A stretch of 64,000 bases of DNA from Chrysoperla carnea (Eukaryota; Arthropoda; Insecta; Neuroptera; Chrysopidae): assembly GCF_905475395.1 (NCBI RefSeq), contig NC_058337.1, positions 86,546,368 to 86,610,367 on the forward strand, in the 5' to 3' direction. A program made the position numbers and the translations under genes. Below are positions 3,927-63,476 of the stretch, one piece after another. The notes under the pieces were generated by a model. It ran no database searches. It saw nothing but the letters and a program-made list of their open reading frames with translations, and had not been told where the DNA came from. Position 1 is the first letter of the stretch; the number at the start of each line of letters is the position of its first letter.

Positions 3927-4216
3927 TGAAAAGAACTGTATGATAGTGATCTTCTGGCTTACGCCATTTAAGTTTTAGTTTTTTTAACCTGAAGAAGAAA
4001 GTCATAAATCGAGTATATTTTTAAGATCTCAACGCCACGATAGTAAAAAAATGAACTTTCATTAGGTCATTCAGCTGATCGTTTTCATTGAATAAAAAGA
4101 TTATAGAAGGATTATAAAATGCGTTGATAGGTATATTACCAGTAATATTTATATAATAACTCATAACTCAAAAAAAAAATTGTAAACAGCACTTTAACGA
4201 TTGGAAATGATGAAGA

Positions 4217-5254: not shown

Positions 5255-5452
<198 letters not shown>

Positions 5453-5556
5453 TCATTTATGTATAATTAAATCGGCTTTCTGAGTAAATTTTTTATCACA
5501 AACTTCACATGTAAATGGTTTCTCTACAGTATGAAATCGTTTAATATGTCTAATTA

Positions 5557-6650
5557 AATAGGGAATATTCATGAAATTTAAATTTGGTTCAAATATTTTT
5601 CTTCCGTAACTTTAATGACTGGACATTTCAACTAAACCATTATTTTAGTAATTAATATCTTTTTAATTACTTAAAATTAATTAATAAAAGTATCATAGTA
5701 CGGGCTTGTCAAATTTGTTGATATACTGTATGATATTAATTACTTACATTTTATATGGTATTTCATTAAATTATACTATTCTACGGCTTTTATTAGAAAA
5801 CTTAATAATAACGAATATAAATTCTGTGTTGTAAATTCATTTTTATACCATGTATATATGAAATATACATAGTATATTAAGTTTCGTCCCAAGTGTGTAA
5901 CGCTTAGAAATATTGATGCTACGAAAAAAATTTTGGTATAGGTGTTCATAGAATCACCTAATTAATCCATTTCCGGTTGTCCGTCCGTCCGTCCGTCTGT
6001 GGACACGATAACTCAAAAACGAAAAAAGATATCGAGCTGAAATTTTTACAGCGTACTCAGGACGTAAAAAGTGAGGTCAAGTTCGTAAATGAGCATCATA
6101 GGTCAATTGGGTCTTGTAAACCGTTAGAGATAGAACAAAAATTTTAAATGTAAAAAATGTTCCTTATAAAAAAATAAGGAACATTTTGTTTGAAACATTT
6201 TTTTGTAAATATCACTGTTTACCCACTAGGGCGTTAATTATGTGCAAATTTTATAGTATGTATTAATATAGGAATATCAGTTGTGTGTGTGTCTATTTAA
6301 AAGTGAATATCTTTTGTTATTTACGTGACGTCAAAAAAAACAAACGATTGCGCATCAACACTGTCTATACATGGTATTTCAACAATTAACTCAGTCAATT
6401 GTTTGTTTTCACTTGTTTAAAGTGTAAATTATGCATTGAACTGTCACCAATTGACAGATCGCGTATTTATACGTCATCAATAGAGAGCGCCAAAAAACTG
6501 CGTTTAAATATCTCAAAATTATAATGTATTTTAAAAATTTTTTTACACTTAATTAACGTATTTTTAAGCAGTATTTATATTTTTTAGTTTGTTATAACGG
6601 TGTAAACAATGAATTAAAAATATTAAAAAAAATACATGAATATTCCCTAT
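5557..6650 (-). mobile_element. MITE family B, copy 1, interrupted by repeat A
   Basis: Terminal inverted repeats of about 16 bp (atagggaatattcatg) mark both ends. Internal blocks match the copies at 11207, 33996 and 36048. A complete reverse repeat A (5840-6416) sits inside it, so repeat A moved later. The element lies within the zinc-finger pseudogene. I see no clear target duplication. Confidence 0.85.
5840..6416 (-). repeat. Repeat A, copy 4 (full length, nested)
   Basis: Reverse-oriented full copy running from tttttatacc to acttgt, inserted in MITE family B copy 1. It carries a clean gtccgtccgtccgtctgtgg block. Confidence 0.85.
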
Positions 6651-34700: not shown

Positions 34701-37700
34701 AAAACTAAAACTTAGCAGAATGTTGTTACAGGATATAAATCATTTTAAAAACACTTCTAAATACAAATTTTTTAATATTATGATTTTTCCCTAATGCTAG
34801 AGTTGCCCATAAAAGCTATGGAGCTATATAGCGGCCGTAATGAAGCGATTTTTATACAAATTATTTATATGGCATTTATTATTTTTCTGTCGCTTAATAT
34901 CGCCACCGCTTTCCTAGGTAACTTTCCTTTTCTAAGGCATTATTAACTCTCATATTATCTCATATTATTAGGTGGAGCCCGTAAGAAATGATAACTATAA
35001 AATATTTTATGTATTTCTTCAAATTATATGCAGATATTAATAGTTACGACATTATTTTCTATACTGTCAAATAGCCTATTGCCGTGGCAAATACAATTTC
35101 TAGTTAAAACTTAAGTATAAAAAAACATAATTTTACAATCCAACTATTAGTAAAATATTCGTTTTAAACTTAACAGAATTTGGAAGTGATGACATTAACA
35201 AATCGTTGCAGAAGTTTAGAAAGTGCTACAGTGAAAAAAATTAATATTTTATCACAATCACAAGCTGATAATGGATATCGACAAAACGATGATTTTTCGT
35301 CACGATTTAATGCATCATTCACTGGCAATAGTAATATCAGAAGACATATATCACTCAGTACAAAGTCTATTCAAACCCAAAACATAATGAAAGTATCACG
35401 TACGGATATGTTTACATGTAAGTATTATTTTTGAAATTACTATCAATGAGTCTTGTGACCACAAAGACCATAGATTTAATAAAAACCGAAAAATTTCCAT
35501 GTTTTTTAAAGTTTTTATAACTTGAATTATTATTATTCAAGTTATTATATCTAATTTTCCAATATTTATTTTTCATGAAATAGTATGAAATCGATTATCT
35601 AGTCTTTCTTCTAATATCTATCAACTAAACAAATTTTTGTATTCTTAAACGTATTAAAATTGTTATAAGTTCGACCCGTGAGGAATTCCGCAATGCGGCA
35701 CTCGTAGCTAAAAACAGGCTAGAGAAATAATATATAAGTGAAACAAAAATTTACTTTCTTTTGTTTATAGGCAATTTTATTGCAAATATGCAAAATTCCT
35801 AAGCGGTACATTTTTAGATCGTGGGTCTTATTTTTCGTCAGTAGTCAGTACGATAATAAAGCTTTGATAAAGGAATAAGGAAAATCTCACGTGGGCAGGA
35901 ATAAACAGACTAGAGAAATAATATAAAATATTAAAGATTTACGATTATTAATATTATTTGATTTCTATTTTACGTGTTTTTGGAATAATATAACCCAGTT
36001 AGATATATTGTGTCAAGAGATATTCCAATTAAAGGACTAAATATAATAATAGGGAATATTCATGTATTTTTTTTATATTTATAATTCATTGGTTACACCG
36101 CTATAACAAAGTAAAAAATATAAATACTGCTTAAAAATGCTGTATTTAAGTGTAAAAAAATATTTAAAATGCATTATAATTTTGAGATATTTAAACGCAG
36201 TTTTTTGGCGCTCTCTGTTGATGACGTATAAGTACGTGATCTGTCAATTGGTGACAGTTCAATGTATAATTTACACTTAAAAAAAATGAATTTACAACAC
36301 AGAATTTACACTCGTTATTATGAAGTTTTCTAATAAAAAGCCGTAGAATAGTATAATTTAATGAAATACCAAATAAAATGTAAGTAATTAATATCAAACA
36401 GTATGTCAACAAATTTGACAAGCCCGTACTTTGGTGTCTCGTCCGTATAAAAATTTGAATTTCCGTTTTAGAAATTTTTAAATGCCCTCATTGAATTTGT
36501 ACTTTTATTAATTAATTTTAAGTAATTAAAAAGATATTAATAACTAAAATAATGGTTTAGTTGAAATGTCCAGTCATGAAAGTTACGGAAGAAAAATATT
36601 TGAACCAAATTTAAATTTCATGAATATTCCCTATTAAAGGACTAAATATAATTATTATTATTCTCACTTATTTATAATATTCTTTCAGTTTATCCTCTAA
36701 GAAAAGAAATACCGGAAGATATTTTTAGATTACATCCAAACATAAGAATATTAAATGATAATAATAATGTAAATATTCAAAGCTCGAAGGAAGATCATGA
36801 AGTTGGTAAATAATTTGGATAATTTTATTATTTTAATAAATTTTTGTTCGGATCACCTATTTAAAACCAATTTTATTATATTTTTAGATGGTAAAAATTT
36901 AATGCCAGAATTTATTACAAAATTAGAACATAAAAAAAATTTTTCATTGGAATATATTTTTCCTGAAATAAATAATTTAATTAGTTTATCATTGGAAGAA
37001 TTAGAATCTAATAAAAATAATTTATACTTCAATAAAGTAAGTACCTTTTTCCATATAAGATGTTAAGAATTGACTTCATGTGTGCAATAGGGTATTATCG
37101 TTAGTCAAAAATAAATCTTGAAATTTGAAAAAAGTTAAAATTTATGTAAAAATATACTTAAATATTCTGATTTCGAGTCATAAAAGCACATTTTTCTTTT
37201 AAAATATTAAAATTAAAAATCGTAATTTTTAAACTTTATATCACGTGACCTAAAACGCGGGTAAGCCCTGCTGTGATGTCATAGCGGAATGAGTCATAGT
37301 TCATAGACCATCAATTAGTTCAGTGTAGACAGCTGGGTATAATATATACATAGATAAGTATTTATATTTATTATAATCAGATCTCTATGAATATATCTGT
37401 CTAACTTATTTGTGTTATTTCATATAATGATACCGATGTTACGTCATCAAATTGGATACCCGCGTTTTTGACAGTTTAAAAGAGTTTTAAAATTTAATTT
37501 AAGTTTTTGGCAAGAAAGCGTGTGCATTTTTCCCAAATAAATTTTGTTTGGCTTTTTATTAGCAAAATCAACATTTTGAGGTACTTTTTCAAAAATAGTA
37601 GAATACCCCATTGAGTGTAGCATTTGTATACTGAATAATAACTGCATTTGCATTGGTCAACTACATATTAAGATTGTGTGAATTTTCGTATATTTGTTTA

Positions 37701-40700
37701 ACATTTGCATTCGTAAGAAACGATGCGAATTTTAAGAACGAACTATTCTATTTTACCAACTAAAATAAATTTTTTTTTCAGCTTATACACGCGTGTCAAA
37801 CGTTATTGTTTAATATTACAAATTTACTAAAAACTGAAAAAAAGAATGTAAGACGAATATATATTTCATTAAATGATCGATATTATATTAAAAATGTACC
37901 AACAATTTCATCACTATTTAATTCAAGGTAAATTAAATAAACTTAAGATGTATTTTTACCAATATATGAAAGAACCTTTGACGATGAAATGTTTAAATCG
38001 AGGTATAACACTGCAAGGAGGTGAGCGACCGCTCTTAGGTTGATAAATGTATCCAAAAAGTACCTATTAAATGAATGTCAAGTTGATATTTTGTTCCCAA
38101 AAAATAAAGTAAGAAACGTTTGCTTACAATAATAGTCTTGATTCATTTCTTCATGTTCGGTTGGTCGTCTTTTTCAATACTAATTAAATAAAATTATTCT
38201 TTTTCCTGTAGATAAACGGATCAAGTGAATAACAGTGGCCCACTGTTTTCCGAGACTCAGGTCTAAATTAATTTTTTTATGTTATTTTCGATTTTCATAC
38301 TCTGTCCAGGCTCATTTTAACCGTTGAAATGAACCATTTTTCTCCCTAAATCGCAAAAAAACGCTTTGAACTCCCATTTCACCATTTTCAAGGGTCTCGA
38401 GTTTAATTTTTTTTGTTACTTACATCCCAAACTAACATTTCCACCAAGTCGATGCCTGTTAGTAATTTATTTGTCTCAAAAGAGTTTTAGAATTGTGCTA
38501 AAAAACCATCTTAATTCTATTTAATTAAATAGCATCAAATATTTAATTATTTTTTATTTTTTACAGACCTATAATTCAAAATGAATTTGGCATCATTGTT
38601 CGGCAATATTTAATGATAATAGCAATACTTGTAAAATATAGCAAATATTTAGCTAATTATATATTTGGGAAAACTTTACTTAATTTAAGCGATGATTTAG
38701 AATTAAATAAAGAAATTATATCATTCAAAAATAATTTTGATGATGAAAATTATTTATTTTTAAAAATTATCAAAGATATAGTTTTAACAATCAGAGATCA
38801 CGTAAGTTATTTTGTATCATGTATAAATAGTACAATCAAATATGTAACAGATTAAGGAAAATGCAATAAATCACTAAATTTTTTCTAAAACCTGGTGGAA
38901 TGTGTTTCTTGGATATCAAATATCATTCCTAAACTATGATTTAGTTACGCAAATGTTTCTATACGTTACAATAAACTGTTAATGAAATGGAATGGTCCAT
39001 GTAAAAGTTGACTTAAAAAATTAATAACTAGGCAACTTGTATTACGTATATGCTACATATATAAGATTGTGTTTTTCATGGCTGATATGTAATACAAATT
39101 GCCTATTTATTAATTTTTGAAGTCAACTTTTACATGGACCGTTCCATTTAATTAAAAATTTATTGTTTATGAACAAGTAGAAAAATTTGCACAACTAACT
39201 CATAATTTAGTAATGATATTTAACACATTCCATCAGATTCATATTCAATTTAATATGTTCCTTAATTAGGCTGGTGAATACTTAGCTTTAGGAAGTATAG
39301 AACTATTAAGAAGTTTAAATTTTGTAAAAAATAAAATTGTCATATCGATAATTTAAAACAGCGATGAGTTCTAGTTTGAATTAACTTTTAATTTTTAGGA
39401 TTTCTCAAATAATTGTTGCGGTCTATTAATTGGAATTATAGAATTATTAACAAATTGCGTTCACAAATCAAACTTTGACAACTTAAGGTAAGGAAATAAA
39501 AATGGAACACAAATTTCTGTGGTTTCTAATTTAATTTGTAGCTTTTTCTCTTATCAGTTGTAAAAAATCGTCTTTCCAATGACCTGTTGAGTGTAGGTCA
39601 ATAATAACAGGGCTTCTATCATAATTATGCCCCCTTCGAAACTAAGAACTTTCATTAGTGTCATTTTTTGATTGAATACTCCCTTGGCAAAATAGTGAAG
39701 GTGACATATAAAAATGAACACTCTGTATGATACTTTATATTTTATTGTTTCAGTAAAAATTTAATTTTCGATATAATAAAGAATGTTACTTTTTCTTGTC
39801 CACCGCCGGCAGTTTTATGTTCAATAACAAAATTATTGAATAGATATTCATTTAACAAGGATTTTTCAAGACAGCTGTGTTGTAATTCAAATAAAGATAA
39901 ATTTTCTAGTAATGAAAATAAAATTTATTTTGATGAAGGTAAGGAAAAAAACTGTAATTAAATTTAGTTTTCTTACTCAATTAATTTTTCAGACTCATGT
40001 CTTTTACAACATTATTCAGTTCAACTGGATGATTGTTTACACAAATCAGTGACAAATATTTGGATTACAATGGAACAACTTGAATACCTTACAGTATTTT
40101 TTCATAATCAATATTTAGCCAATAATTGGACGTCGTCAAAAGATGAGTTAGTATTTATATATTGATTATATAAAGCCTAATAGTTCTACTAAACTTAGTA
40201 TCGTATCTTGTCACCACATTTTTATTTGGAAAATATAAAAAAAAAGTAATTTAACTTACTTGCTTATCGATGATGAATTTAATGGCGGGGATGGGAGTCA
40301 TCAACATAAATTTTAACTAGGCACTTTCGATGATGCTGCCTTCTACAACAAGTTTATAGTTTACAGAGTCCCTCGATAATCTTGCTCGTTAAGGTGAGAA
40401 ATTTCCGAAAAAATCAAATATAAATGTCAGTTTATATCAATATTTTGAACGGTACAGCCTCTACAATTCGCGGATTCATAGCTGAAATTTAGAGCATTAG
40501 CCTGTTCGAAGTTCCAGCTGTATGTGTTTAATTTTTCTATTTGACTTAAATATTTAAGAAATGTGTTTGTCAAAGTAATTAAACGATATATATCAGCCAT
40601 CTAAAACGCAGTGGGTTGTAAGGAAAAATGATTTCCATGTATTATGAAATATAGGTAAAGTTATTACACAAAAATAGAACTTTTGTAAATAGAACTTTTT

Positions 40701-43428
40701 GTAGAAACCCCTTGGAATATTTAGAATATTATAATTTAAAAAAAATTGTATTTATTTTGTCACACACAATAAAAAAAATCGTCGAATGCGAATAAATGAA
40801 ACTACTTATTTACAGTGTGTCGCATTTAAGATGAAGACACCCTCATGCTTTCGTTATTTATAGGAATATCGATTTATCTACACAGGGTATTTCAACAATA
40901 TTCTCAGTTAATAGACCTTTTCATTTCAATTACGATTCATTATTGTTTCGGACAGACATTAAGTTGGATAAAGATATAAGATATTTGTCATTCATTTTAT
41001 CACATTAGTTTTTTATCACAAACTGTCCGAAGCAAAAGGTAATCACTTTTTAAAATAAAAAAGTCTATTGTTTATTTTCACTTGTTGTTTATTTTTTGTT
41101 TTAGATGCCAATGTACGTTAAATACTATGCAATGCTTTTTTAACTTATTAAATTGCTCTCTAGTCTACTACAAAAAATATAAGCTTTGTTTTCAAGGTGA
41201 GTCCATAGAAATTTATGATACATATTTTAAAATTTGGCAGTATATGATATTCCAAATACACTTGGAAACACTAAAACAAAATTGCCGTCTTATTTTTTAC
41301 AGTAATTAAATAATAACAATAATAAACGGATAATCAAACCTAATATTATAAAAGCAAATCAATTTTTGAGATATAATAATGCTACTTTTACTTCCATACA
41401 GATCTTTTAGTAGGTAATAATGCTTGCCACAAGACTAATGAAAATATATAATCCAATTAATCTGCGAAACGGATGACAAAATAGCTATCAAAAAACAAAA
41501 ATACGTTGTTATAGAATAAAACAAGCCAAGAATCACAGCGTTTTTTGAATTCATCGTGTTTAGCATGTGCTACTGTGTACGAAAATGCATGTTGTCAGTC
41601 GGTGATCGGATATTTTAACTTTTTATACCATGCATATATGTAATATGCAAGGTATATTAAGTTTAGTCCCAAGTTTGTAACGCTTAAAAATATTGATGTT
41701 ATGAACAAAATTTTGGTATAGGTGGTCATAAAATCACCTAAATAGGCCATTTCCGGTTGCCTGTCTGTCTGTCGTCTGTCCGTCTGTCATCACGATTACT
41801 CAAAAACGAAAAAATATATCAAGCTGAAATTTTTATAGCGTTCTAAGGACGTTATAAGTGAGGTCTAGTTCGTAAATGAGCAACATAGGTCAATTGGGTC
41901 TTGGTCGCGGGTCCGTAGGACCCATCTTGTAAACCGTTAAAGATAGAACAAAAGTTTAAATGTAAAAAATATTCCTTATAAATATTATATATATATATTT
42001 TTTATAAATTACCAACATGTTTTGAAAAATTCCATGGTTAAAATTTTCACAGTTCCTAATGTACAGATTTCTGTATATAGTTTTTCAAAAAATATGGAAG
42101 CAATCGAAGAGCTAATTTGAAAAAAAAAATCGATTCTGATATTTTAGCTAGGTACTGACTTTTAGTCAGGTACAAAGAACGTACTTCGATCCACAGCAAC
42201 AATTGGTCAAAAAAAAAAATCAAAAAAGCGTCAAATGCAAAATATCAATGCATTCCACATTAAAAAATAGTCGAACGCATGCGATTGCTATATCCCTCTC
42301 ATTATTTATTTGGCTCAGATTTGAGCTAACATCAAATAATGTTACTATATTTTATACGAAACGAAATATTATTCGTTTACAGCTCATATTTTTACAACTT
42401 GCTTGCCCAAATTTGCCTCACTTTTTGAAATTCAAAAATAAAAACATTTTTAATATTTTTCAGAACGAAGAAATCAAACCCATATACATAATATTTTTAA
42501 AATGGCTGTTAACATGTTACATATATTTTCATACAATAAGGATACTGAAATGTATAAATTATTTAAACTACATCGACAAAATGTTCATATTTTAAAAGAA
42601 TTAAGTAGTAATTTTGAATTTGAAACACGTAAGTAATTCTTAAAAGACCACGCAGCTTCCTTGTATAAAATGGCTTTCGGACAAATCTTTGCAAAAATAC
42701 ACTAGCACCAGGACTCGAACCTCTTGGATTCATGCCAAGTGCCTTATCTAATTTGGTATCATAAATTATTTAACCGAACCGGGCTTTAACGTTTAAAATT
42801 GTATGCAAGTTAGAAGCCTTTACATTTGTTTCTAATTTTTTTTTTAAATTTAATTAAATAATTTGACTTATTTGTATATTGTGAATAATATTAATGTGTT
42901 AGTAATCTGGGGGACTAGACTGTGACTTATAAAAAGTACACACAAAATTTGAAACAAATGTAAATTTGGTTTCTTAATAAAAATATGAGGTTTTTTATCA
43001 CTTATATGAGCAGTGTGAACCTGTATGTGTATACTATAAACACATGAAACATAGCGATAGTATAAGACGCTAAAATGTTACACATAATTGAGTCACTTAA
43101 GTATAACAGAAGTGACGAAGTTGGCTACGTCCTAGATCAGATTTCTAGAGGACCCGGGTTCGAGTTCCAACTTCTGTGTAATTTTTCGTTTCTTTCTATG
43201 TTTAGATTTTACTAAACGCACTTAATTGTCCCAAAGAATCGTGCAAGGTTTTTTTTATTAAATAAAATTGTAATTAATCAATAATTTTCTATTTTAGTAA
43301 ACATGTTAGAAGAAATGGAAGCGGATAATAATTATCAAATTAAGCTAAATAAAAGTGAAATATTTCACAAAGACGAAGCTACACAAATATCAAGTGAATT
43401 ATTTGATAATTTTTTTAGTTTTGTGTAA
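31770..43428 (+). CDS. ATRIP: ATR-interacting protein homologue (checkpoint adaptor; mus304 in Drosophila)
   Basis: Fourteen exons: 31770-31916, 31982-32356, 33801-33962, 35177-35417, 36689-36805, 36888-37036, 37782-37927, 38567-38801, 39399-39487, 39754-39938, 39993-40146, 41105-41196, 42464-42628, 43298-43428. They splice in phase to 795 aa; human ATRIP has 791. The acidic DDVWGEDFDEDIL at residues 35-47 matches the family's RPA-binding checkpoint-recruitment motif. A coiled coil follows (about 150-245, including LLKEIERLKDENKKLSEKF and EGEVTILRNQL), then a long helical C-terminal part as in the ATR-binding region. ATRIP brings ATR kinase to RPA-coated single-stranded DNA. AATAAA follows directly on the stop at 43429 and again at 43444. 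The introns carry at least four transposon insertions. The later exons diverge most and rest mainly on splice phase and length. Confidence 0.9.
32727..33352. repeat. Dispersed repeat plus foldback in ATRIP intron 2
   Basis: 32727-33040 carries a widespread insect repeat style (aaccgacttcaaacaaaaac ... gggtgaaccgattttgatga). 33054-33352 is a foldback with ~127-bp arms (33054-33180 and 33222-33352) sharing aaaaccgacttc/gaagccggtttt and a cgataatataat block around a ~40-bp loop. Confidence 0.75.
33996..34568 (-). mobile_element. MITE family B, copy 3 (573 bp), ATRIP intron 3
   Basis: Terminal inverted repeats aatagggaatattcatgaa and catgaatattccctatt. The interior matches the other copies in reverse orientation. 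It begins 34 bp after the donor of ATRIP exon 3. I see no obvious target duplication. Confidence 0.85.
36048..36635 (+). mobile_element. MITE family B, copy 4 (588 bp), ATRIP intron 4
   Basis: Full-length copy in the opposite orientation to copy 3. It is bordered by a long direct repeat: attaaaggactaaatataat at 36028-36047 and again at 36633-36652 (17 bp clear of the terminal ATT, 20 bp counting it). It ends about 50 bp before ATRIP exon 5. Confidence 0.9.
38852..39265. mobile_element. Foldback element in ATRIP intron 8, possible TTAA target
   Basis: Two ~200-bp arms are reverse complements around a short AT-rich loop near 39070. Matching blocks include catgtaaaagttgact and agtcaacttttacatg. 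TTAA lies at both outer edges, next to GGAAAA... and ...TGTTCC, consistent with a TTAA-targeting element. Noncoding. Confidence 0.75.
41620..41980 (-). repeat. Repeat A, copy 7 (partial), ATRIP intron 12
   Basis: Reverse copy from ttttataccatgcatatatg to gtaaaaaatattccttata; the acaagtg end is missing. The central block has decayed to ctgtctgtctgtcgtctgtc. Confidence 0.8.
42702..42764 (-). repeat. tRNA-derived sequence (pseudo-tRNA or SINE head)
   Basis: On the minus strand it reads tagataaggcacttggcatg ... gaggttcgagtcctggtgc, with a good B box. The acceptor and D arms do not close, so it is not a functional tRNA. It lies in ATRIP intron 13. Confidence 0.5.
43107..43176 (+). repeat. tRNA-like sequence with paired acceptor arm
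   Basis: cagaagt (43107-43113) and acttctg (43170-43176) can form a perfect 7-bp acceptor stem. gggttcgagttcc resembles a B box. The T stem is incomplete and no normal anticodon arm is seen, so a tRNA-derived pseudogene or SINE head is more likely than an active tRNA. Confidence 0.4.
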
Positions 43429-49996: not shown

Positions 49997-50257
49997 CTCT
50001 TTTTGTATTATCTTACATTGTCCATTCGTTCAACATTACGTTCGGACTCCTTGTATATCTATACTTCGTGATTTATACCCTCTTCAACCCACTTTAACCG
50101 CCATTAAAATGACACCTATTTGGAGTCGTGAATATTACACCGCGTCAAAAAAATTAGAATTATAAACCTTTTCACAAAATATAATTTTTGTGTGTAATAA
50201 AGTTGAAATAATTTGTGTATCTTTTATGATTAGTGTGTAAATAATCATTTGGATAAC

Positions 50258-51517
50258 ATGGAAGATAACATTAAAATTGAAAAAGAATTAAATATAGAAT
50301 TAGTAACAGTTAAAGAAGAAATATTTGAAGATAATGACCCAATGATACCAGAATTAGTAATTAAAGAAGAAATACTTGAAGAAAGTGACACAAAGATAAA
50401 AGAAGAAATACTTGAAGAAAATGTTCTAAACGAATATGAAAGAAGTCATTTTAATGAAGACTTTTCGACGGTCAAACACGACAATATTAAACTTGAAAAT
50501 ACAGGAATAATAAAGGATGAAATATTAGATGAAAATGATTTGGAAGATCAACAAATTCTCGCTAAAGAAGAACTTTATAAATGTAATGTTTGCGGTAAAA
50601 CATTTACACAGCAAACTAGTTTCATTCGACATAATCTAATATTTCATCATAGTGTACAAAGACCATTTTCCTGTGAAGCTTGTGATATGGGATTTTTTCG
50701 TGAAAGTGATTTTATTCGACATAAACAAATTCATATTGAAGAAAAGCCTTTTTCTTGTGAATTATGTGATAAAACCTTTAATCACCACGGAAATTTAATT
50801 GCACATATACGAACTCACACCGGAGAAAAACCATTTTCATGTGAAATTTGTGGTAAAAAATTTGCTCGAAATTCTCATGTGACTATACACAGGCGAACCC
50901 ATACAGGAGAAAGACCGTTTTCATGTGAATTTTGTGATAAAACATTTACTCGACATAACAGTTTAAATGAACATAAACGAATGCATACAGGTGAAGGACT
51001 ATTTCCATGTGATGTTTGCAATAAAAAATATACTCTGAAAAAGAGTTTAATTCGACATCAAATAATTCACACGGGGGAAAAGCCTTTCTCATGTGATATT
51101 TGTGATAGAATATTCGCTCGGAAATATGATTTATTTAAACATCAAGTAACTCATAATAGAGAGCAAAAATTTGAATGTGATGTTTGTGGTAAAACATTTA
51201 CGCGACAAACCAGTTTAAATATACATAAAAGAACCCACACTGGAGAAGGACTTTTTCAATGTGATGTTTGTGATAAAACATTCACTCGGAAATACGATTT
51301 AATAAAACATAAAATCATTCATACTGGAGAAAAACCTTTTTCATGCGATGTTTGTGATAAAAAATTTGCTCGAAATGATGATTTGATTAAACATAGAGTC
51401 ATTCACACCGGAGAAAAATCTTTTTCATGTGAACATTGTGATAAAACATTTACTTGGAGAAATCAATTGACTCGACATAAACTCATTCATAGTGGGGAGA
51501 AAGATGTATTATATTAA
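50258..51517 (+). CDS. Intronless C2H2 zinc-finger protein with 11 fingers
   Basis: 419 aa from ATG 50258. The frame is also open for three codons upstream, but that codon is TTG, and a TAG at 50231 closes the frame further up. No splice acceptor lies between. Residues 1-105 are acidic and carry repeated (V/I)KEEI(F/L)E units. Eleven consecutive C2H2 fingers follow, with CNVC, CEAC, CELC, CEIC, CEFC, CDVC, CDIC, CDVC, CDVC, CDVC and CEHC knuckles and mostly HTGEKPFSC linkers; two linkers are GEGLF variants. There is no ZAD or other effector domain. It is probably a nuclear DNA-binding protein. AATAAA lies at 51700. The pseudogene at 5071-6884 is of the same style. Its true family name cannot be given from sequence alone. 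Confidence 0.9.
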   Translation: MEDNIKIEKELNIELVTVKEEIFEDNDPMIPELVIKEEILEESDTKIKEEILEENVLNEYERSHFNEDFSTVKHDNIKLENTGIIKDEILDENDLEDQQILAKEELYKCNVCGKTFTQQTSFIRHNLIFHHSVQRPFSCEACDMGFFRESDFIRHKQIHIEEKPFSCELCDKTFNHHGNLIAHIRTHTGEKPFSCEICGKKFARNSHVTIHRRTHTGERPFSCEFCDKTFTRHNSLNEHKRMHTGEGLFPCDVCNKKYTLKKSLIRHQIIHTGEKPFSCDICDRIFARKYDLFKHQVTHNREQKFECDVCGKTFTRQTSLNIHKRTHTGEGLFQCDVCDKTFTRKYDLIKHKIIHTGEKPFSCDVCDKKFARNDDLIKHRVIHTGEKSFSCEHCDKTFTWRNQLTRHKLIHSGEKDVLY

Positions 51518-52499
51518 GTTGGTGATTTTTACGAAACATTTACGAAAAAATCATTTATATAATAATATTACTTATAATTTTTAAATTTATGAAATTATTT
51601 TTTAAGCTGTGATGTTGATAAAGGGATCTGTACAAAACCAATGTAAAAAATATTGTCAATTAGCCTGTTACTTTTTTATAAGATATCTATGCCGTTCTGA
51701 ATAAAAGAAATTATTAGCCCAACGGAAAATAATAACACGTATTCGAATTATTCAAATTTCGAGCAACGATATTTAGTACATTTTAAATGAGCACAATCTA
51801 ATTTATCTAGATCTATCTCTATTTTAGAACAGGAGCGTATTTCAAAATATATTGTGGTACTTGAAACTCGAGTAACTAGAAAATGTTTCATAGACTATCA
51901 TTTTATAAAGAATTATCAGATGATTATTTTTACATTGGTTTTGTGCAGAGCCTTTTGCTACCTCTGTTCTGAACCCAATGAATACAACAAATTGTGCATT
52001 GTAAAATAAAAACCAACGACCCCTCCCCCTCCTAGATTTTCTTGAATCATAGCTAAGAAACAAAACAATCAGATACAAAGATAGGCACTTTCAACTTATA
52101 TGGGTGAATAAACAAATTTTTTTTTCTGTATTATGCGAGGTGCCTAAAAGGTCTGTACAATTAGTACAGACTTTTTGTTCAACAAATTCCAAAATAAAAC
52201 TTAACAAAGAAATGATAAACAAATTTAATGATAAAATTGTTTAAAATTTAGAAAAAATGAAAACGTTATCGCGAAATTTTATACTGTATAAAATAACCAT
52301 TATTCGTTTATATTTATTTTAGGTGAAATATGTACAAATATATATAATAAAATATCGTTTTTAACAATTTTTCTGATTTAATTATTATTATTCAATATCA
52401 TACCTACATTCATCTTTTATCCTTTGCATCCATTTCAGGAATATCAAATAGAACCTACATTTTTAACGATATTACTACAATTATTCATTTATAGGTAAG

Positions 52500-52735
52500 T
52501 TTATTGAAAAAAGGTGAGTAAAAATAAATACATAATGGGTCAGTTTAATGAAAAAAGTCAGTAAAACAAAAATACATACTAAATTTAAGAAAACAAGTTT
52601 ATTCAAAAAAGATGAGTAAAAGGTATATATATTATATTATTGAGAAGTATAATATGTCAAAGGTGGTGTGGTGGCTATCCCAGTCGTCTCCGGTTACAGA
52701 GTACCCTGGTTCGTATCTAGCATTGTCCCGATTGA
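52500..52735 (+). repeat. Degenerate ~42-bp tandem repeats and tRNA-like head
   Basis: 52500-52625 holds about three poor tandem units built on gtttattgaaaaaaggtgag. 52662-52729 reads like a tRNA-derived head (ggtggtgtggtggctatccc ... ctggttcgtatct), marking the outer left side of the inverted-repeat nest. Confidence 0.45.
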
Positions 52736-52827
52736 TTTTTTTTAAATAAGTAATTATGCCGAGAGAAAGTCGTTTATTTAGAAAATTGTTATGAGAACCA
52801 AAAGCGACAAAGTATAAGAGAGCGAGG

Positions 52828-52888
52828 TATATTTTATGTTATTTTAATTCCCACCCCTTGACAGAAGAGTGATTTATGACATAAGTAG
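52828..52888 (+). repeat. Left direct repeat flanking the palindrome nest
   Basis: Block with aattcccaccccttgacag and agtgatttatgacata. It recurs in the same orientation at 56893-56955 (aattcccaccccctgaaag ... agtgatttatggcata). Same-orientation copies outside an inverted-repeat core are notable. Confidence 0.7.
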
Positions 52889-52925
52889 GAAAATGGGATT
52901 AACATTTTTTATTTTTTTAAATAAG

Positions 52926-53200
52926 ATGTTCTCCTATTACAAAATCTTATAAAATTTCATTTAACAAGAATAAATTTTAGCATGACAACAAAAAAAAATC
53001 AAGCAAAATAAGAAGTATTTTTTTAATATTTTGTAATAGGCGAATATGTTATAAAAAAGTGGGATAAAGTTATAACATGTTCTCCTGTTACAAAATTTCA
53101 AATTTTAGTCTTAACGAGAATTTTTTTAATTTTATAAATAAAAATTTGTTTATATTTTGTAATAGGAGAATATGAGTGAGATAAACTATATGACATGTTC
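52926..53200 (+). repeat. Two to three tandem units with ~20-bp inverted ends
   Basis: Unit 1 runs from atgttctcctattacaaaat (52926) to attttgtaataggcgaatat (53030). Unit 2 runs from atgttctcctgttacaaaat (53077) to attttgtaataggagaatat (53153). A third unit starts at about 53194 and is truncated. Each unit is thus an inverted-repeat module, and the modules are arranged in tandem. Confidence 0.7.
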
Positions 53201-53231
53201 TGTTATTTATTTATTTCTAATAATATAACCA

Positions 53232-53513
53232 AGCCATTTTAGCTCCGCGATCTTAGCACCTCATGTGCGGAATTTCGATTGACCAATTATACCATCTGAA
53301 AGGTCAGAAATTGGTCATAAGAGGTCAGTTGGTCTCATTAATTGGTCAGCATCAGAAAATTTTTTATTAAAGATTAAAGTTTTTCAAGGTCAATTAATAA
53401 GTTTAGCACCTCATTCGCAGAAAAAATAAAAAACTCCACCTATGCGCGATCCGGAAGCATTCGCTGATAATTGGTCAGCTAATATAAATAATTGGTCAGT
53501 TTAATTTAATATT
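53232..53513 (+). repeat. Outer inverted repeat, left arm
   Basis: About 280 bp with many attggtcag words. It is the reverse complement of 56058-56836 once a later 570-bp insertion is removed from that arm. Shared blocks include agctccgcgat, cctcatgtgcggaatttcga and gcattcgctgataattggtc. Confidence 0.85.
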
Positions 53514-53659
53514 AAAAAAAATTAAAAAAGTTGTCTCTGTCGTAACGCGCATGCTTTGAGCCGGATGGTTTTATCAGGGCAGTGAGTACTTACGCACAGC
53601 TCTTCACTATAAACCAGACAGAGTAGGGGAAATATTTTTTTTTATAATTTTTTTTTTTT

Positions 53660-53707
53660 ATATGTACTACTATCAAATATACATGTATATTTGATAGTAG
53701 TACATAT
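53660..53707. repeat. Perfect 48-bp palindrome
   Basis: The 24-bp half starting atatgtactactatcaaata is exactly mirrored with no spacer; the centre is CATG at 53682-53685. It is flanked by T and A runs that extend the symmetry loosely. Confidence 0.95.
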
Positions 53708-53777
53708 CAAAAAAAAAATGGATAAAATTTTTACTTTTAAAAAAATGAATTTTTCCTTTTATTTAAATTTTTCACTC

Positions 53778-54225
53778 TTTTTATACCATGTATATATGAA
53801 ATATACATAGTATATTAAGTTTAGTCCCAAGTTTGTAACGCTTAAAAATAATGATGTTAGTATAAAAATTTTGTCATAGGTGTTCATAAAATCACCTAAT
53901 TAGTCCATTTCCGGTTGTCCGTCCGTCCATCCGTCCGTCTGTGGACACGATAACTCAAAAACGAAAAAAGATATCGAGCTGAAATTTTTACAGCGTACTC
54001 AGGACGTAAAAAGTGAGGTCAAGTTCGTAAATGAGCATCATAGGTGAATTGGGCACTGTTTACTAGTGAGGGCGCCAATTAGGCGGAAATTTTATAATAG
54101 GTACTATACTTGATTATCAGTTATGTATGTGTCACATGTTTGTATGTGTAATGTGATAAATAAATCAACACTGACTATGCATGGTATTTCAACAATTAAC
54201 TCAGTCAATTGTTTGTTTTCACTTG
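53778..54225 (-). repeat. Repeat A, copy 9 (left partner of inverted pair)
   Basis: Reverse copy from tttttatacc to acttgt with an internal deletion near 54050 removing about 150 bp relative to copy 10. Confidence 0.85.
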
Positions 54226-54300
54226 TATTATATATATTTGTACATATGTCACCTATAAAAAATTTGAATGAATAATAATAATGGTTATTTTATATAGTAA

Positions 54301-54946
54301 ACAAGTGAAAACAAACAATTGACTGAGTTAATTGTTGAAATACCATGTATAGGCAGTGTTGATAACTCTGTCACATTTCACATACATACATATCTGACAT
54401 ATTTAACTGATATTCTCATATAATGCGCAAGTGTTGATGCGTAATCGTTTGTTTTTTTTTGACGTCATGTAAATAACAAAAGATATTCACTTTGATATTC
54501 CTATATTAATTACATACTATAAAATTTGTACCTAATTAACGCCCTCGTGGGTAAACAGTGATGGTTACAAAAAAATGTTTCAAACAAAAGTTATTTATTT
54601 TTTTGTAAGGAACATTTTTTACATTTAAACTTTTATTCTATCTCTAACGGTTTACAAGATGGGTACTACGGACCCATGACCCAATTGACCCATGTTGCTC
54701 ATTTACGAACTTGACCTCACTTTTTACGTCCTAAGCACGCTGTAAAAATTTCAGCTTGATATCTCTTTTCGTTTTTGAGTCATCGTGACCACAGACGGAC
54801 GGACGGACAACCGGAAATGGATTAATTAGGTGATTTTATGAACACCTATACCAATTTTTTTTTGTAGCATCAATATTTTTAGGCGTTACAAACTTGGGAC
54901 TAAACTTATAATACTATGTATATTTCATATATACATGGTATAAAAA
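54301..54946 (+). repeat. Repeat A, copy 10 (full length, right partner)
   Basis: The longest copy in the window, from acaagtgaaaacaaacaatt to tacatggtataaaaa, with the cggacggacggac block. With copy 9 it forms a large palindrome around a 75-bp spacer. Confidence 0.9.
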
Positions 54947-55550
54947 TCAATTTTCGGGATAACGTTTTCAAATTAATATAAATAAATAAATATCGTTATA
55001 TATTTTAAATTTTGTTTTATTTTATTCTATCCCATTTTTCCTTTCAGAACAAAATTATTAATTAACTAATTAATTTTTTTTTAGTAAAGGTACAAACAAA
55101 TTCTTATAAAATATAGGTGAGATAAAGAAGTTGGATTGTAAATACGTAATATTCTTTTTGGATTTTCATTTTATTTTTGTGTGGTATTTGGTTTGTAAAA
55201 AAAAAGTTAATGCAAAAAAATTTTTTTAAGATGAAATTAATTATATGGAATTATGTGCAAGTAATTCGTAAATAGTTTTTAAGTATTTTGATTTCATTTA
55301 AATAAAGTTGAAAACTCAAACCCTGTTTTTATTTTATTTTTCCCCATCTCTCTGTAGCTACACAATATTATTTCAGTTAAAAATAGGTGAGTATTTCGAA
55401 CTTCACGATAGGTAAGTATTTCAAACTTCGTTTGCCATTTTTTTTTGTAATAATACTACTCAAAATTTTCCGAAAATGAGTTTTACTTTTTGTTATAATT
55501 TAAGAAAGTCGAAAATATGAATATAATTATTTATTAATACGAATAACAGA
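54947..55550. other. AT-rich core of the palindrome nest
   Basis: No exon. Contains an imperfect ~26-bp tandem duplication at about 55385-55440 (ataggtgagtatttcgaact / ataggtaagtatttcaaact). Confidence 0.5.
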
Positions 55551-55617
55551 GCCCTAATGGTATAATGGTTAGCGTATCTGACTTCGAATAAATAGTCCCT
55601 TGGTTCGAAACTAGGTG
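55551..55617 (+). repeat. tRNA-derived sequence (tRNA-Arg-like)
   Basis: gccctaatggtataatggtt ... gtatctgacttcgaa ... cttggttcgaaact resembles a tRNA with a TCG anticodon region and a B box, but the acceptor and anticodon stems do not pair. It is probably a SINE head or tRNA pseudogene. Confidence 0.5.
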
Positions 55618-55734
55618 AGGTCATATATTAAAAAAAAGTTCATTAAATCTTTTAAGCAAAATCTGATTTTTATTTTCATTTTTTTTCAAATTTCCACCAC
55701 AGCAGTTTGCCTAGTAAATGATGAAAAAATTAGT

Positions 55735-56040
55735 TTTTTTTCGTTCAAAAACTTCAATTTTTTTCACATTTCTACTAGGAGAACATCAAGGACGGACGGA
55801 ATAAGTAGTACCTGATAGCAAGGTAATTGTTGTCACCTCGTAAGTCAGAAAGTTAATGGTCTGCACACCCGTGTTTGGTGAGTGTGACCTCTAGTGGGCA
55901 GACCAATAACTTTCTGCCAAAATAAAATTTTAGACTTTCGGGGTGAAAACACTTACTCACCTTTCTCCTTATCAGGAACTACTAATTCCCACTTATGTTC
56001 TCCTAGTACAAATGTTGAAAAAATTGAAAATTTTTTCGAA
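55735..56040. mobile_element. Foldback with terminal tgttctcct motif
   Basis: Arms of about 130 bp (55735-55870 and 55893-56040) face each other around a strong inner hairpin: cagaaagttaatggtctgca and its near complement ending ataactttctg, 55848-55915. Each arm carries the ctaggagaacat motif and a gtagtacctgata / agtagttcctgata block. Confidence 0.75.
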
Positions 56041-56057
56041 ATTATATTATTTTTTGA

Positions 56058-56836
56058 ATATAAAATTAAACTGACCAATTATCAGCGAATGCTTCCCGAT
56101 CGCGCATAGGTGGAGTTTTTTCAATCTTTAATAAAAAATTTTCTGATGCTGACCAATTAATGAGACCAACTGACCTTTTATGACCAATTTCTGACCTTTC
56201 AGATTAGTACAAGATCCGAATTAGGGTCGACCTTCACCCATCTGTTTACCGAATGAAAGTTATTTTTTATGAAATGTAAAATATTAACAAATATTCCTGT
56301 AACGGGTTGCCTTAAAAAATATGGTCCAGACCATTTTTAATATAAATATCAAAACTTGGAAAGCTTGTAAACATTATTTTTGACCAATATTTTGTGGCCA
56401 ATCATATGCCACCGTAATTGTAACAAAATTATCTTTATTTAGATATACGAGTCAATGAATTAACAGATGCACGTAATTACTATTTTCAACTTGTATAAAT
56501 GCGATAATAGTGAACGAAAAAAGGCAAACAACATAGCTGCTGCATATTCTTTATGGCTTTTACTTTCGAGTAGATCAAAATTCGTAAGATATGCAAGTCA
56601 GTGAAAAATTTCTAAAAATTTTACTCTTGATATTTTCACTAAAAGTAGTCTGGACCACATTTTTATAGGCAACCCATTGCAGGGATATTTGTTAACATTT
56701 TATATTTCATAAAAAATAACTTTCATCCGGTAAACAGATGGGTGAAGGTCGATCCTAATTGGGATCTTAGACTAGATGGTATATAATTGGTCAATCGAAA
56801 TTCCGCACATGAGGTGCTAAAATCGCGGAGCTAGCC
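56058..56836 (-). repeat. Outer inverted repeat, right arm (interrupted)
   Basis: Reverse complement of 53232-53513. The arm is split after tgacctttcagat by the element at 56205-56774 and resumes at gatggtatataattggtcaa. Confidence 0.85.
56205..56774. mobile_element. TIR element inserted in the right arm, 3-bp target duplication
   Basis: 570-bp element with ~130-bp inverted ends beginning tagtacaagatccgaattag (left) and, in reverse, tagtctaagatcccaattag (right). GAT stands on both sides. The matching left arm of the palindrome (53292-53300) has this GAT only once and no insert, giving an in-window empty site. Noncoding interior. Confidence 0.88.
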
Positions 56837-56892
56837 ATTTTTGTACACATTTTTAATATTTTGTACCAGGAGAACATGATTTTAAGGAGTGT

Positions 56893-56955
56893 GATATATT
56901 TATGATTATTTAAATTCCCACCCCCTGAAAGAATAGTGATTTATGGCATATGTAT
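56893..56955 (+). repeat. Right direct repeat flanking the palindrome nest
   Basis: Same orientation as the block at 52828-52888, about 85% alike by eye. See that entry. Confidence 0.7.
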
Positions 56956-57074
56956 AACTGACGTTATTTATAGCAAGAGGGCGGGTTATATAGATAATTT
57001 AAACTATAAAAATAGTGGAAAAATTTAAACATCAAGAAAAATTCATTTAATTTAAAAGTGAAAATATTAATTCA

Positions 57075-57142
57075 CACCAGGATACGAGCTTGCGTACCTT
57101 GGTTTCAGAGCTAAGTGCTATATCCACACAGCCACTCGGCTT
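57075..57142 (-). repeat. tRNA-like sequence (Ser/Leu-like)
   Basis: On the minus strand it reads gccgagtggctgtgtggata ... caagctcgtatcctggtgt. It has a class-II-like A box (gccgagtgg) and a degenerate B box, but no closing acceptor stem. It faces the tRNA-like head at 52662. Confidence 0.45.
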
Positions 57143-57394
57143 ATTTCTAAAAATATAATTAACTTAATACTTACCTTCTGAAAGAAAAACTAGAATAGAA
57201 AATTTAAAAAATAAAACAAAATCTAAAATTTATAACGATTTTTATTTATTTACAAAAAAAAATTTTTTAATGAAAAATCATATTGTACATTTTCATAAAA
57301 CAAATTAACAGAGATTTTTCTTTTCTTATTAAAGTTATTATATAAAATAAGTAAAACATACATCTTTTTAATAGAATAATAATAATAATAATAA

Positions 57395-57452
57395 AGGGTG
57401 TCCCAAGATTAACGTCTGATTCTAACTTCTGACGTTAATTTTGGAACACTTC
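57395..57452. repeat. Tiny inverted repeat (58 bp)
   Basis: gggtgtcccaagattaacgt and acgttaattttggaacact are inverted around ~15 bp. It is preceded by an (AAT)n run at 57374-57394. Possibly the collapsed ends of a DNA transposon. Confidence 0.6.
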
Positions 57453-57497
57453 TTTATAAAGCACAATATATACTTTCTTATAAATACTACTAACTAA

Positions 57498-57760
57498 ACC
57501 ATAGAGATATGAAGATAGCGAACGCTAGCCTGTAAGTGGATGCGATATGTGAAGCGAGAGAGAAGACTGCCAGTAAGTTCCTCTGTATCCTTGTCTAATA
57601 CATATACTTATACTTACTAATACAAATAATAATAATAATAAGTATATACGTACATATGATTATGACAAGGACACAGGGAAACTCACTGACAGTCTTCTCT
57701 CCCATTCATCATTACGCCTCCACTTACATGCTAGCAGAGTCCTCGCGTTCTCTATGTATA
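57498..57760. mobile_element. TIR element family C, copy 2 (complete)
   Basis: 263 bp with arms of about 110 bp: left 57499-57607, right 57644-57759. Each arm carries gtaagtgga and gagagaagactg blocks. The ends read accatagagatatg and, in reverse, atacatagagaacg. The loop is (AAT)-rich. It supports the decayed copy at 49203. Confidence 0.8.
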
Positions 57761-58684: not shown

Positions 58685-61600
58685 ATGTCTGACGAATCTT
58701 GGAGAACACATGCCTTTCGGCAGAGTATTGTTGCAAAAATGTGAGTGTTTTATATTATTCAAGTTCAACCTTCGGGTAATGACGTGGTTTTCACCACTAG
58801 GTAAAGAAAATTAATTTCTTGATTCACATCCGAAGAATAACTTATTGGTTATTAATCAGGCTATAAATATTTTGGCTTGGAAAAATCTGCATGTCAGTAC
58901 TCAAAGGTTGACTCTATTTCTCAACAGTTTTAAGATAATTTTAAGCTAAACAATATTATTTCTATTCGATATTTTAGTGATGAAGCTATTAAACAATCCG
59001 GAACTCCGACTACTAAGAACAGTGTAGAAATGGAGAATCATGTTTTCATGAAGGCAAAGTCTAAAGAAGAATATCTAAGTTTAGTAGCTCGACTTATTTT
59101 GCATGTTAGAGAAATGAGTAAGTTTTTATATTATTGTAGATTTTTTAAAATTATTTTATTACATAACAATAATATTTATTTGTTAATATTTTTGACATAG
59201 ATATATTATACTATAGATAGATATTTACATAGACATTCAGTTGATTAGTGAACAATTTGAAAATAGGAAATTGGGATCACAAATTACATAAGTACTAGAT
59301 ATTCAGCATAATATCATCATGTTAATCCATTCTATTTTCATAAAAATGTTTGTGTTTTTAAAGGAAACACTAAAAATTTTGCTATTAATAATAACTCTAG
59401 CAAAACTAAAATACACAAAAAGAAATACCAACTGCAATAAAACAAGTGTAATATCAATTATAACTTTTTTTTGAATTATTTTTACGAAAAATCCAACAGT
59501 TCGCGAAGATTTGTCGACTGTACCTCCGAAGAGGGATTTTAATATCTAATAATAAGAGGGAAATATGTTCTTTATAAAATATACTTCTCTCGGCATACGA
59601 ATCAAAATTGAAGTTTTCCACGATTGCAATATTTTGCTTACTTTTTACATGGAAGAAAAACAGCTAGGAATAGGATTCACGCCAGCACTATTGTCTTATG
59701 ATGAAATGGCTTATAAAGCATTTTCTTTGGATTGTTACCAAAAATGAATTTAATATTTGAAAAAAATAATAACGCACAACCCTCTTGATACATAATTTAA
59801 TTTACAGATTCAAAAAAAGGAGCTGGTATGAATACGGGTGGTACTAATCAAGGCGGACCAGGAATGCCTGATCCAATAAATGCGTTACAAAATCTTGCTA
59901 GTCAAGGTACTAGAAACACTCAAATGATTGGCATGGGTGGTCCACAGGGACCACCTAATATGAATACAAACACTGCTTCGAATCTTCTCCAAACACTAAA
60001 TAACCGACCTGGCCAAGGAAATATGGGTGGTATGCAAAATATGGGAAATAAAATGCCTGGTATGCAAATGGGTCAGAACCAAGGCCCTATGGGTAACATG
60101 ATGCCGGGACAAATGTCGAATCAACTACAAGGTCCATTAACCAATCAATTACAGGGTCAAGTGCAAGGGCAGGTTATTGGCAATCAAATGACCGGACAGA
60201 TGGGTCAAATGTCTGGGCAAATTACAAACCAAATGGCCGGTCAAATGCCTGGTATGCCGTCACAGTTAGTAAACCAAATGCCAAATCATATTATTACTCA
60301 AATGCCTCATTGCCACCTACCGAATAATGTGAATTTTTCTGGGCCAAGAACTGTAACACCCAGTGGTTCATATATGCGACAAAGTCCTACACCTAGTGCT
60401 CATTCACCGGCCAGCTTGGGAAGCGCACCTTCTAGCAATCAAATGGTACCATCACCAGCGTTGGTTCCATCACCTAGTTCTCAAATGACAATGATGAGTG
60501 GACCTCAACGGTCTGTTGGTATGGCGCCTTCACCAGGTAGTTCGTTAAATACACCGGGGCAGGCTGCACCAACTCCTAGCCCTCTGGGAATGCAAGAAGA
60601 TCAAGCTTACCGCGATAAAGTACGACAGCTTAGTAAATATATTGAACCATTACGAAAAATGATTGCTAGAATGGGAAATGACGGTGAGCGTACGTGTTTT
60701 CATTGTTTTTATTTATTTTTTTTACTTCATTAATTTTATAAATACCAATAAAATTTAAACGGGAAGACGCTTGGATTTTTGGGAAATTTCTAATATTATA
60801 ATTATTTTTTAAGATATTTTTTACGCCAATTTAGTTAAACACTAATTTTTTTTCATCAATATGTTACGTCTAATTCGAAACTATATCCAACAAGGATAAA
60901 GTTCCAGAAAAGAAGTTTTTCACATTCTCTTTCATCTGACCTTAATAAAATTATGTGCTTTCATTTGCTTCTGTGAATCTCTTATCATTTGTGATTATTA
61001 ATCTAAATACATGCGACTTCCCTTATTCAACAGAGCTCCAATTCGATTGAAATTGTTATAAATTAAATTAATTTTTTTTTTTTTGGAGCTACAAAGAATA
61101 TATTTAATTTTTTGATATTTTAAAATTTTGAAGTTTTATTTTTAATAATTTGGTCTATCGTCAATCTCATAAAAAATTTCCAAAAATTTTATAGATGTTG
61201 AAAAGTTAAGTAAAATGAAAAAATTGTTAGAAGTTTTATCAAATCCTACAAAAAGAATGCCTTTAGAAACGTTATTAAAATGTGAAGTGGTATTAGAAAA
61301 AATGGATTTGAAACGTGGTGAAAGTGGTTCTAGCACTGGAACTACCTCTACAAATACTCAACTGGCGGCACTGAAGGAACATTATATATTTAATCCATTG
61401 TTAGAAGCAATTAGTAACAGTTTACAAAGTACAGTTTTCAATCATACGTTACAAAGAACTTTTGGACCAAGTACAGAAGCTTTAAATGGACCAGAAATTA
61501 AGTAAGTATTACAATATTCTGACATGTATTTTCCAGGGTAAATTATAGGCAAATACCTGATTTACAAATACAATTCAACCACCTAAATTATCCGAAACAT

Positions 61601-63476
61601 TCATTGAGCACAACAATATTTTAGTTATTTGAAATTTTTAGTGCTTCGTAAAGTATCTAGTTTAAAATACGTTTGGTTTCTTTTTGTTGTTTTTTATAAC
61701 AATTACCAAAAATATTTCCATTTTACTAATAAGGGACTTGTTCAGCAGAAAAACTGGTTTAATGTTTTTTTTATATGTTTTATAAAAAAAGTGAACGCAC
61801 TAATTTTCTACTAAAAAAGCGTGTATTAAACCACCTATTTTTGCTTGAGTAAGTTCATTAAAAGTGAAATTCTAAATTTTGTATCTAGACGTCTCTTTTC
61901 TACAACCTATTAATTTGGCCCATTATAAAGGCTCATCGAAAAAAAATATTGAAATGTGAAGGAATTCACCCCATTAATTTTTAAGGGAATGTAACATATT
62001 TCCGGATTTTCTGTAAATATAATATGAGTTACTAAAGTTGAAAGTTCCCATGAGGATTTTTTATAGAAATTGAGACTTTTTTTTGCTGTTTATATTCCAA
62101 GCAAAAATAAATTTGGTAAGGAGCGAAAATAGGTAGGTAAAAACAAGAATATCCAAAAATTTAAGAATTTATTATTGCATTTAATATTTAAATAAGAATA
62201 TCAAAGTTTAATATTCCGTGAAGTATAAAAATTTTAATAGATGCTATAAACCCAGTTTTATCCCGTTCCAAATTTGTACTGCTTAGAATATCTTGTAAAG
62301 ATATAAGTAACAAATATTACATATTTAAAATTTAAAGTCAATAGGGATGATATAGGGACTGTCTTATCTCCCTGCCTTGAAGGAAGATACCCAAAAAAAT
62401 AAAAAAAAATAAAAAAATTATTGTCAGCCTCTACTCTTTTCCACTCAGTCCCATATGAAAAAAATCATGCCTCACCATTAATTAAACGTACAGTAAATAT
62501 GCTAACCGTCAATAAAACCACATCTCGCCTGCTTCCAGAAGCTTTTCTTTTTATCACAGTCGACGTTTTATCAATTTTATGAATTTTGTAGAACGTTCAA
62601 CTTCCTACAAAAATATGTGTTGAGATTTGCTGTACGTTCAATAAATGGCAAGATAGGAATTTTTTCATAATAGATTGAGGTAAAAATGAAAACTTTGATG
62701 AGGCGGGTCGAGTCGCCTTCTTATCAATATTAATATCTCATATTAGAAGATAATTTTCTAGAGGTGAAAAGCAACCATTTTTTTGGTATCGAAAGTAAAA
62801 GTAAACAGTCGATTGTTTTGATTAACCCAAGTGTTGATGCAGATGTACCTCTTGAATGTAATCCTGGCGACGCCCATTTATTTAAAAAGAAAGCAAAGGG
62901 TTAAACCGATCACATTTCAATCTAACAAGATGGGTTTTCTTATATTTCAAAGATTTGTCTTTTTTAAAATATTGAAATCAAATGTCTTCCGCTTTAATTT
63001 TTTTTGTGCATTATATTTTATTTATTTATTTTTATATTAGAGGGCTTCCAGCACCATTGAAACGTAAACGTGTTGAAGAACCAACCAGTGATATACCAGA
63101 CGTATTACAAGGTGAAATAGCACGTTTAGATGCCAGATTTAAAGTATCTTTAGATCCAATTCAACAACCTCGTTCACGTACCGTACAATTAATATGTTGG
63201 CTGGATGATCGTCATTTGCCTTGTGTACCACCTGTATCATTATCAGTACCCGAAGATTATCCAAAAAGCCCACCAAATTGTTCAATGGCTGAAAATGAAT
63301 ACAACGCTACACCATTTTTAACATTAGTTCAAAAGGCACTGTTGACACGTATTGGAAAGTTACCTAAACGATTTTCTGTATCACAATTATTAAATACTTG
63401 GGAAATGAGTGTTCGTCAAGCTTGCGCACCGACACAAGTACCAGTATCATCAGCAACTGTTCTTATGGGACTTTAA
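58685..63476 (+). CDS. MED15: Mediator complex subunit 15
   Basis: Five exons: 58685-58740, 58978-59117, 59808-60683, 61195-61501, 63041-63476, in phase, 604 aa. Fly and human proteins are longer (about 750-790), mostly in low-complexity sequence. Residues 1-66 form the KIX domain ([20 protein letters not shown] ... ENHVFMKAK ... [10 protein letters not shown]), the surface for activators. Residues about 73-320 are rich in Gln, Met, Gly and Pro, then Ser and Pro. [19 protein letters not shown] starts the conserved Mediator-binding half (about 330-604). The start ATG fits the family N-terminus exactly. MED15 is a nuclear tail-module subunit linking transcription factors to RNA polymerase II. 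A possible AATAAA is at 63655. Intron 4 (61502-63040) shows no recognisable element. Confidence 0.95.

Follow-up and report, generated by a model that had tools for sequence, protein, structure and literature searches.

How did five inverted structures come to be stacked within about 4.5 kb of an insect chromosome? The locus in question, referred to here as the nest, occupies positions 52662-57142 of a 64-kb stretch of Chrysoperla carnea DNA (the window; assembly GCF_905475395.1, contig NC_058337.1, positions 86,546,368 to 86,610,367 of the forward strand), and all results given below are for this window alone. A preliminary description, made from the sequence, listed a pair of outer arms, an inverted pair of a repeat (repeat A), a perfect palindrome, a foldback and an element with terminal inverted repeats (TIRs), and held that no single known element type explains all of it. 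All five structures were found at or near the positions given, and no inverted match was obtained at the same threshold in five Markov-simulated 64-kb controls. We agree that one element type is not enough: the locus is a composite, and its outermost structure is foldback-like. It is very probably the product of serial nesting of unrelated non-autonomous transposons, all of ordinary, known kinds, in intergenic DNA. Duplications, empty sites and the relationships among repeat copies resolve the picture of palindromes within palindromes into known transposon types.

The outer arms and the element inserted in one of them

The outer arms, initially placed at 53232-53513 and 56058-56836, were found at 53240-53520 and at 56050-56204 plus 56782-56833, with 95–98% identity per aligned block. 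They delimit a putative element, B, whose right arm is split by a smaller element, C:

53241-56832, no strand: element B, non-autonomous, long-TIR, Foldback/Mutator-like, recognized by its arms and an exact junction repeat; TIR start AGCTCCGCGAT; 53240-56833 under a 7-bp reading
53232-53240, plus strand: left target-site duplication of B, AGCCATTTT, an exact direct repeat
56833-56841, plus strand: right target-site duplication of B, AGCCATTTT, an exact direct repeat
53241-53520, plus strand: left arm of B; contains AATTGGTCA motifs and partial repeats spaced 150 bp apart, plus 51 bp and 21 bp that are absent from the right arm
56050-56832, minus strand: right arm of B, split by C, defined by the arm alignment
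56205-56774, no strand: element C, a 570-bp TIR element with 148-bp arms (88% identical), ends TAGT...ACTA and a GAT duplication at 56202-56204 and 56775-56777

With the 570 bp of C removed, the arms of B aligned with 203 matches, 7 mismatches and 74 gap columns (∼97% identity). At ∼210–280 bp they are long TIRs with internal repeats: the 51-bp piece of the left arm contains a second copy of arm sequence, 85% identical, 150 bp further on; another repeat pair shows the same spacing; and 9 of the 11 occurrences of AATTGGTCA in the window lie inside the arms. The repeat flanking B is 9 bp long if the TIR starts with AGCTCC, and 7 bp long if it starts with TAGCTCC. Among random junction pairs on the same grid, a 9-bp match was seen in 43 of 40000, and a 7-bp match in 180 of 20000. 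This arrangement suggests B to be a Foldback/Mutator-like insertion, with a family name taken from its structure and a presumed moving enzyme.

The available text of reports on the Foldback-type elements Tm1 (root-knot nematodes) and Tetris (Drosophila virilis) describes long repetitive TIRs, 8–10-bp duplications and a lack of coding capacity, as well as a Tm1 copy within which a different inverted-repeat element is nested (PMC3169594, PMC4079207). B resembles both in its long, internally repetitive TIRs, in the 9-bp reading of its duplication and in being non-coding; like that Tm1 copy, it holds nested inverted-repeat elements. The likeness to Mutator and Foldback elements is one of structure, not of compared terminal sequences, and no transposase-coding relative was found in the window. 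Moreover, the Tm1 arms described are made of 13–15-bp tandem units, whereas those of B contain short motifs and partial repeats 150 bp apart. A Galileo-type element is an alternative affiliation for B. Galileo, of the P superfamily, is described as having long, internally repetitive TIRs and 7-bp duplications (PMC3573991, available text); B shares the former, and 7 bp is one reading of its duplication. However, the longest exact duplication is 9 bp, and no P-type transposase was found in the window.

The TIR element C, present at the positions first reported, is a clean insertion into the right arm of B with a 3-bp duplication, GAT. The right arm reads CAGAT-(TAGT...ACTA)-GATGGTATA around the insertion site, and the left arm, which reads CAGATGGTATA, is the empty-site paralogue. 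C is later than the formation of the B arms.

Two separate insertions of a dispersed repeat

The middle of B contains two copies of repeat A:

53783-54225, plus strand: A1, a DINE-1-like (HINE) repeat with both ends kept and an internal deletion
54302-54941, minus strand: A2, a second DINE-1-like repeat in the opposite orientation, its 3′ end facing A1

The preliminary description had placed this pair at 53778-54225 and 54301-54946 and counted it among the palindromes. The inverted match exists (89% identity over the outer 276 bp), but the pair is not a palindromic element; what looked like one reflects the orientation of two separate insertions. Repeat A is present at nine places in the window, counting A1 and A2. 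In the tree of these copies A1 paired with the copy at 15640 (98/96), 38 kb away, and A2 stood apart. A1 showed 87.7% identity to A2 and 88.7% to the copy at 5833, and the internal deletions differ between the two arms. Taken together, the tree, the identities and the deletions are best read as two insertions of a dispersed DINE-1-like repeat; within the window, A1 and A2 are not closest to each other. An inverted duplication giving rise to A1 and A2 was rejected because of the tree and the different deletions.

The assignment of repeat A rests on the marks given for DINE-1/HINE elements, which are non-autonomous Helentrons, in the available text of PMC4067079 and PMC2374699: subterminal inverted repeats, a 3′ stem-loop, GTCY units and a T-run target. 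The subterminal inverted repeats of repeat A are 12 bp long. The 5′ one, ATACCATGTATA (0–1 mismatch), stands at the start of all five two-ended copies, after five Ts. Three shorter copies have lost the 3′ end but not the 5′ one, and a T-run precedes two of these. The 3′ end survives in six copies; each of them has the inverse subterminal repeat 38 bp from that end (0–2 mismatches) and a 10-bp stem, with one mismatch, ending 12 bp from the same end. GTCY units were present in the 5′ block of the eight copies examined, in runs of 2–6 units, the longest with one ATCC (2-unit runs only in three of the eight copies); for the ninth copy, truncated at the start of the window, scoring was confined to the 3′ end. 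The likeness to DINE-1 is structural, not one of sequence with the Drosophila core, and no autonomous partner was found in the window. A literature search with the letters of the A core found no related paper among the texts available. Long-TIR miniature inverted-repeat transposable elements and solo long terminal repeats (LTRs) were discarded as identities for repeat A, since the window has complete copies that stand by themselves and bear the marks of HINE elements.

Another copy of repeat A has empty sites. The copy at 5845-6415 interrupts the T-run of a further repeat, D, and three other D copies (at 11, 34 and 36 kb) are uninterrupted at that point. Repeat D is itself a dispersed sequence of ∼574 bp with four copies (11207-11781, 33995-34568, 36048-36636 and 5557-6650, the last with the DINE-1-like copy inside); those at 33995-34568 and 36048-36636 form an inverted pair of 92% identity.

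E-family units and the order of events

Small related units, here called the E family, lie on both sides of B, and their tips recur in the foldback inside it:

52785-53215, no strand: degenerate E-family units clustered to the left of B (∼52785-52948, 53020-53100 and 53146-53215; limits approximate)
56850-56954, plus strand: E-family unit to the right of B, its right-hand limit approximate
55747-56034, no strand: F, a ∼290-bp foldback with E-family tips, adjoining the inner end of the right arm of B

The motif TTTGTAVTAGGAGAACATG, with up to three mismatches allowed, gave seven matches in the 64 kb, all within 52925-56878 (shuffle mean 0.09). B has four of them to its left and one to its right, and the remaining two form the tips of F, inside B. 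Three of the E units are direct copies of one another (65–78% identity). The same-orientation blocks first noted at 52828 and 56893 were recovered at 52815-52887 and 56883-56954 (84% identity) and appear to be the bodies of two E units, of which the left has a degenerate tip. The foldback, first placed at 55735-56040, was found at the position listed above, with arms 67% identical; it has its tips, but not its interior, in common with the E units. Since E units are found on both sides of B, B probably landed in an existing E cluster.

The palindrome and the spacer between the A copies are the remaining listed parts of B:

53660-53707, no strand: perfect palindrome, 48 bp, within 88 bp at 91% (53640-53727)
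54226-54301, no strand: 76-bp spacer between A1 and A2, with an 82% inverted match to 52282-52352, outside B

The palindrome is perfect, as originally described, and has no spacer. The window's next-longest perfect arm measures 14 nt; in 10 Markov controls the maximum was 12. A 20-nt piece of the palindrome arm had no match in the window (up to three mismatches) beyond its own two arms.

The succession of events inside B, and the enzyme responsible for each movement, we infer as follows. The small E-family units would have formed a pre-existing cluster that received B. B, presumably mobilized in trans by a transposase encoded elsewhere, would have left a 9-bp target-site duplication. Its middle contains two oppositely oriented DINE-1-like rolling-circle (Helentron-type) copies, the palindrome and the E-type foldback F. 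C jumped into the right arm of B, leaving its 3-bp duplication. Private substitutions amounted to 9 in 442 columns for A1 and 19 in 529 columns for A2, the arms of B showing 7 mismatches in 210 columns; dating A1 and A2 against B by these figures is not decisive for whether they entered before or after B landed.

Several observations weigh against serial nesting. The target-site duplication of B comes from one copy and has two readings, 7 and 9 bp. B and C were each found once in the window, as was the interior of F, so arms, duplications and tips are the grounds for treating them as mobile families; nor was a transposase found in the 64 kb. The copy of repeat A at 15640 lacks the 5′ T-run, unlike the others, and its pairing with A1 rests on 205 bp, that copy filling 36% of the kept columns. 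Any duplication made by the insertion into repeat D is indistinguishable from the T-run itself. Two fragments inside B, 53723-53785 and 54979-55078, are unexplained and have inverted matches just right of B (57005-57069 and 57149-57252). Finally, independent random insertion would predict less clustering than the seven E motifs show.

With regard to these two fragments, a block inversion was considered and rejected, because order and orientation do not fit. Permissive scoring also gave a weak resemblance between the fragments and repeat D, which we set aside as probably noise from AT-rich sequence.

Alternative explanations

The clustering of the E motifs bears most directly on the proposal, made in the preliminary description, that the locus is a hotspot at which inverted repeats, or E-family DNA, draw more insertions. 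This would be compatible with serial nesting, and we consider it rather unlikely. A preference for this locus has a single observation in its favour, and it is a weak hint: all seven E motifs of the 64 kb lie in the nest, some within B and others on either side of it. Three E units are direct copies of one another, and local duplication may explain part of the confinement. The window also has other inverted-repeat zones, at 33.0–36.6 kb and 38.9 kb. When inverted-arm coverage was counted in 4-kb bins, 1-4000 held 2047 bp and 52001-56000 held 1450 bp, with none in 7 of the 16 bins; the nest is therefore not the densest place in the window. Self-inverted, foldback-type repeats at 33029-33374, 38918-39221, 57524-57735, 966-1338, 8071-8214 and 789-879 indicate that such sequences are not rare here. 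In plants, the available text of PMC6911290 reports a very small palindrome preference of LTR elements, non-significant for nested ones.

The preliminary description also spoke of a composite foldback element. The locus is composite and foldback-like on the outside; joint movement of its contents, however, is not shown by anything found here. In this explanation B would have moved as a unit, taking A1, A2, the palindrome and F along as its cargo, much as Pack-MULEs do with captured DNA. The nearly identical arms and the flanking 9-bp duplication imply that the ends of B landed once, as a pair; the private substitutions of the A copies mean that these need not be younger than B; and Pack-TIR elements are reported from animals (PMC8277862, available text). 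On the other hand, the window yielded no further copy of B, its other A-family copies stand alone, and the dating is too weak for a decision. We regard such movement as improbable, and as equally improbable that B captured transposons of other families (the DINE-1-like inverted pair and the E-type foldback) while E elements repeatedly targeted the locus. If true, the composite explanation would provide an animal example of a transposon carrying other transposons.

It is very improbable that the hairpins are retained for their RNA, as hairpin RNAs or a source of small interfering RNAs. C and F do fold far better than shuffled sequences (z = −22 and −13, respectively), but strong folding is expected of any inverted repeat. 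Nor did arm mismatches show a consistent one-strand excess of G-U pairs in 12 comparisons (three of them pieces of B). In the nest, counts of G-U on the plus strand, G-U on the minus strand and other mismatches were 6/11/9 for C, 3/1/19 for F and 11/11/26 for the A pair. Outside the nest, the inverted repeat at 57524-57735 has skewed G-U mismatches (1 plus, 9 minus).

Least probable of all is an assembly artefact from chimeric or collapsed inverted repeats: assemblers can mishandle spacerless palindromes and many inverted repeats, but the exact duplications at B and C and the arm-specific indels are marks of real insertions.

Database searches and genomic setting

No relative of the A pair was found among phages (query, 1169 of the 4481 bases of 52662-57142), and none of the entire nest among plasmids. 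Viral contigs gave no match to three exact patterns (two from A, one from B), and genome contigs none to two exact A patterns; neither of these searches covered C, E, F or the palindrome. Useful repeat models for the host may come from B, from C, and from the DINE-1-like and E families.

Rfam gave no match at gathering score in the whole window. At E values up to 10, 13 matches were obtained in 52200-57500, all below gathering score. The best, MIR2606 (48.4 bits; gathering score 139.7 bits), was interpreted as an effect of the palindrome. None of the 13 Infernal matches was to a tRNA family, and ARAGORN (bacterial setting) made no call at 52662 (plus) or 57075 (minus), where tRNA-like heads facing each other had been proposed; these heads, which would be the tRNA-like 5′ regions of tRNA-derived SINEs, are unsupported by either program, and strongly decayed ones could escape both. 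The sole ARAGORN call in the window was a tRNA-Ser (AGA) gene at 43106-43178.

The window is AT-rich (∼29% GC) and its genes are of animal type. The nest is intergenic: no open reading frame (ORF) of at least 120 aa overlaps it, and the longest listed stop-to-stop frame in 52662-57142 has 73 codons. It is flanked by a C2H2 zinc-finger ORF (50234-51517) on one side and by Med15 on the other (Med15_M within 59801-60730, Med15_C within 62976-63473); RUN-domain and queuosine-salvage ORFs lie further away. C2H2 zinc-finger coding sequence was also present on the minus strand at 5255-5611, split over stop-separated ORFs, perhaps a decayed or multi-exon gene.

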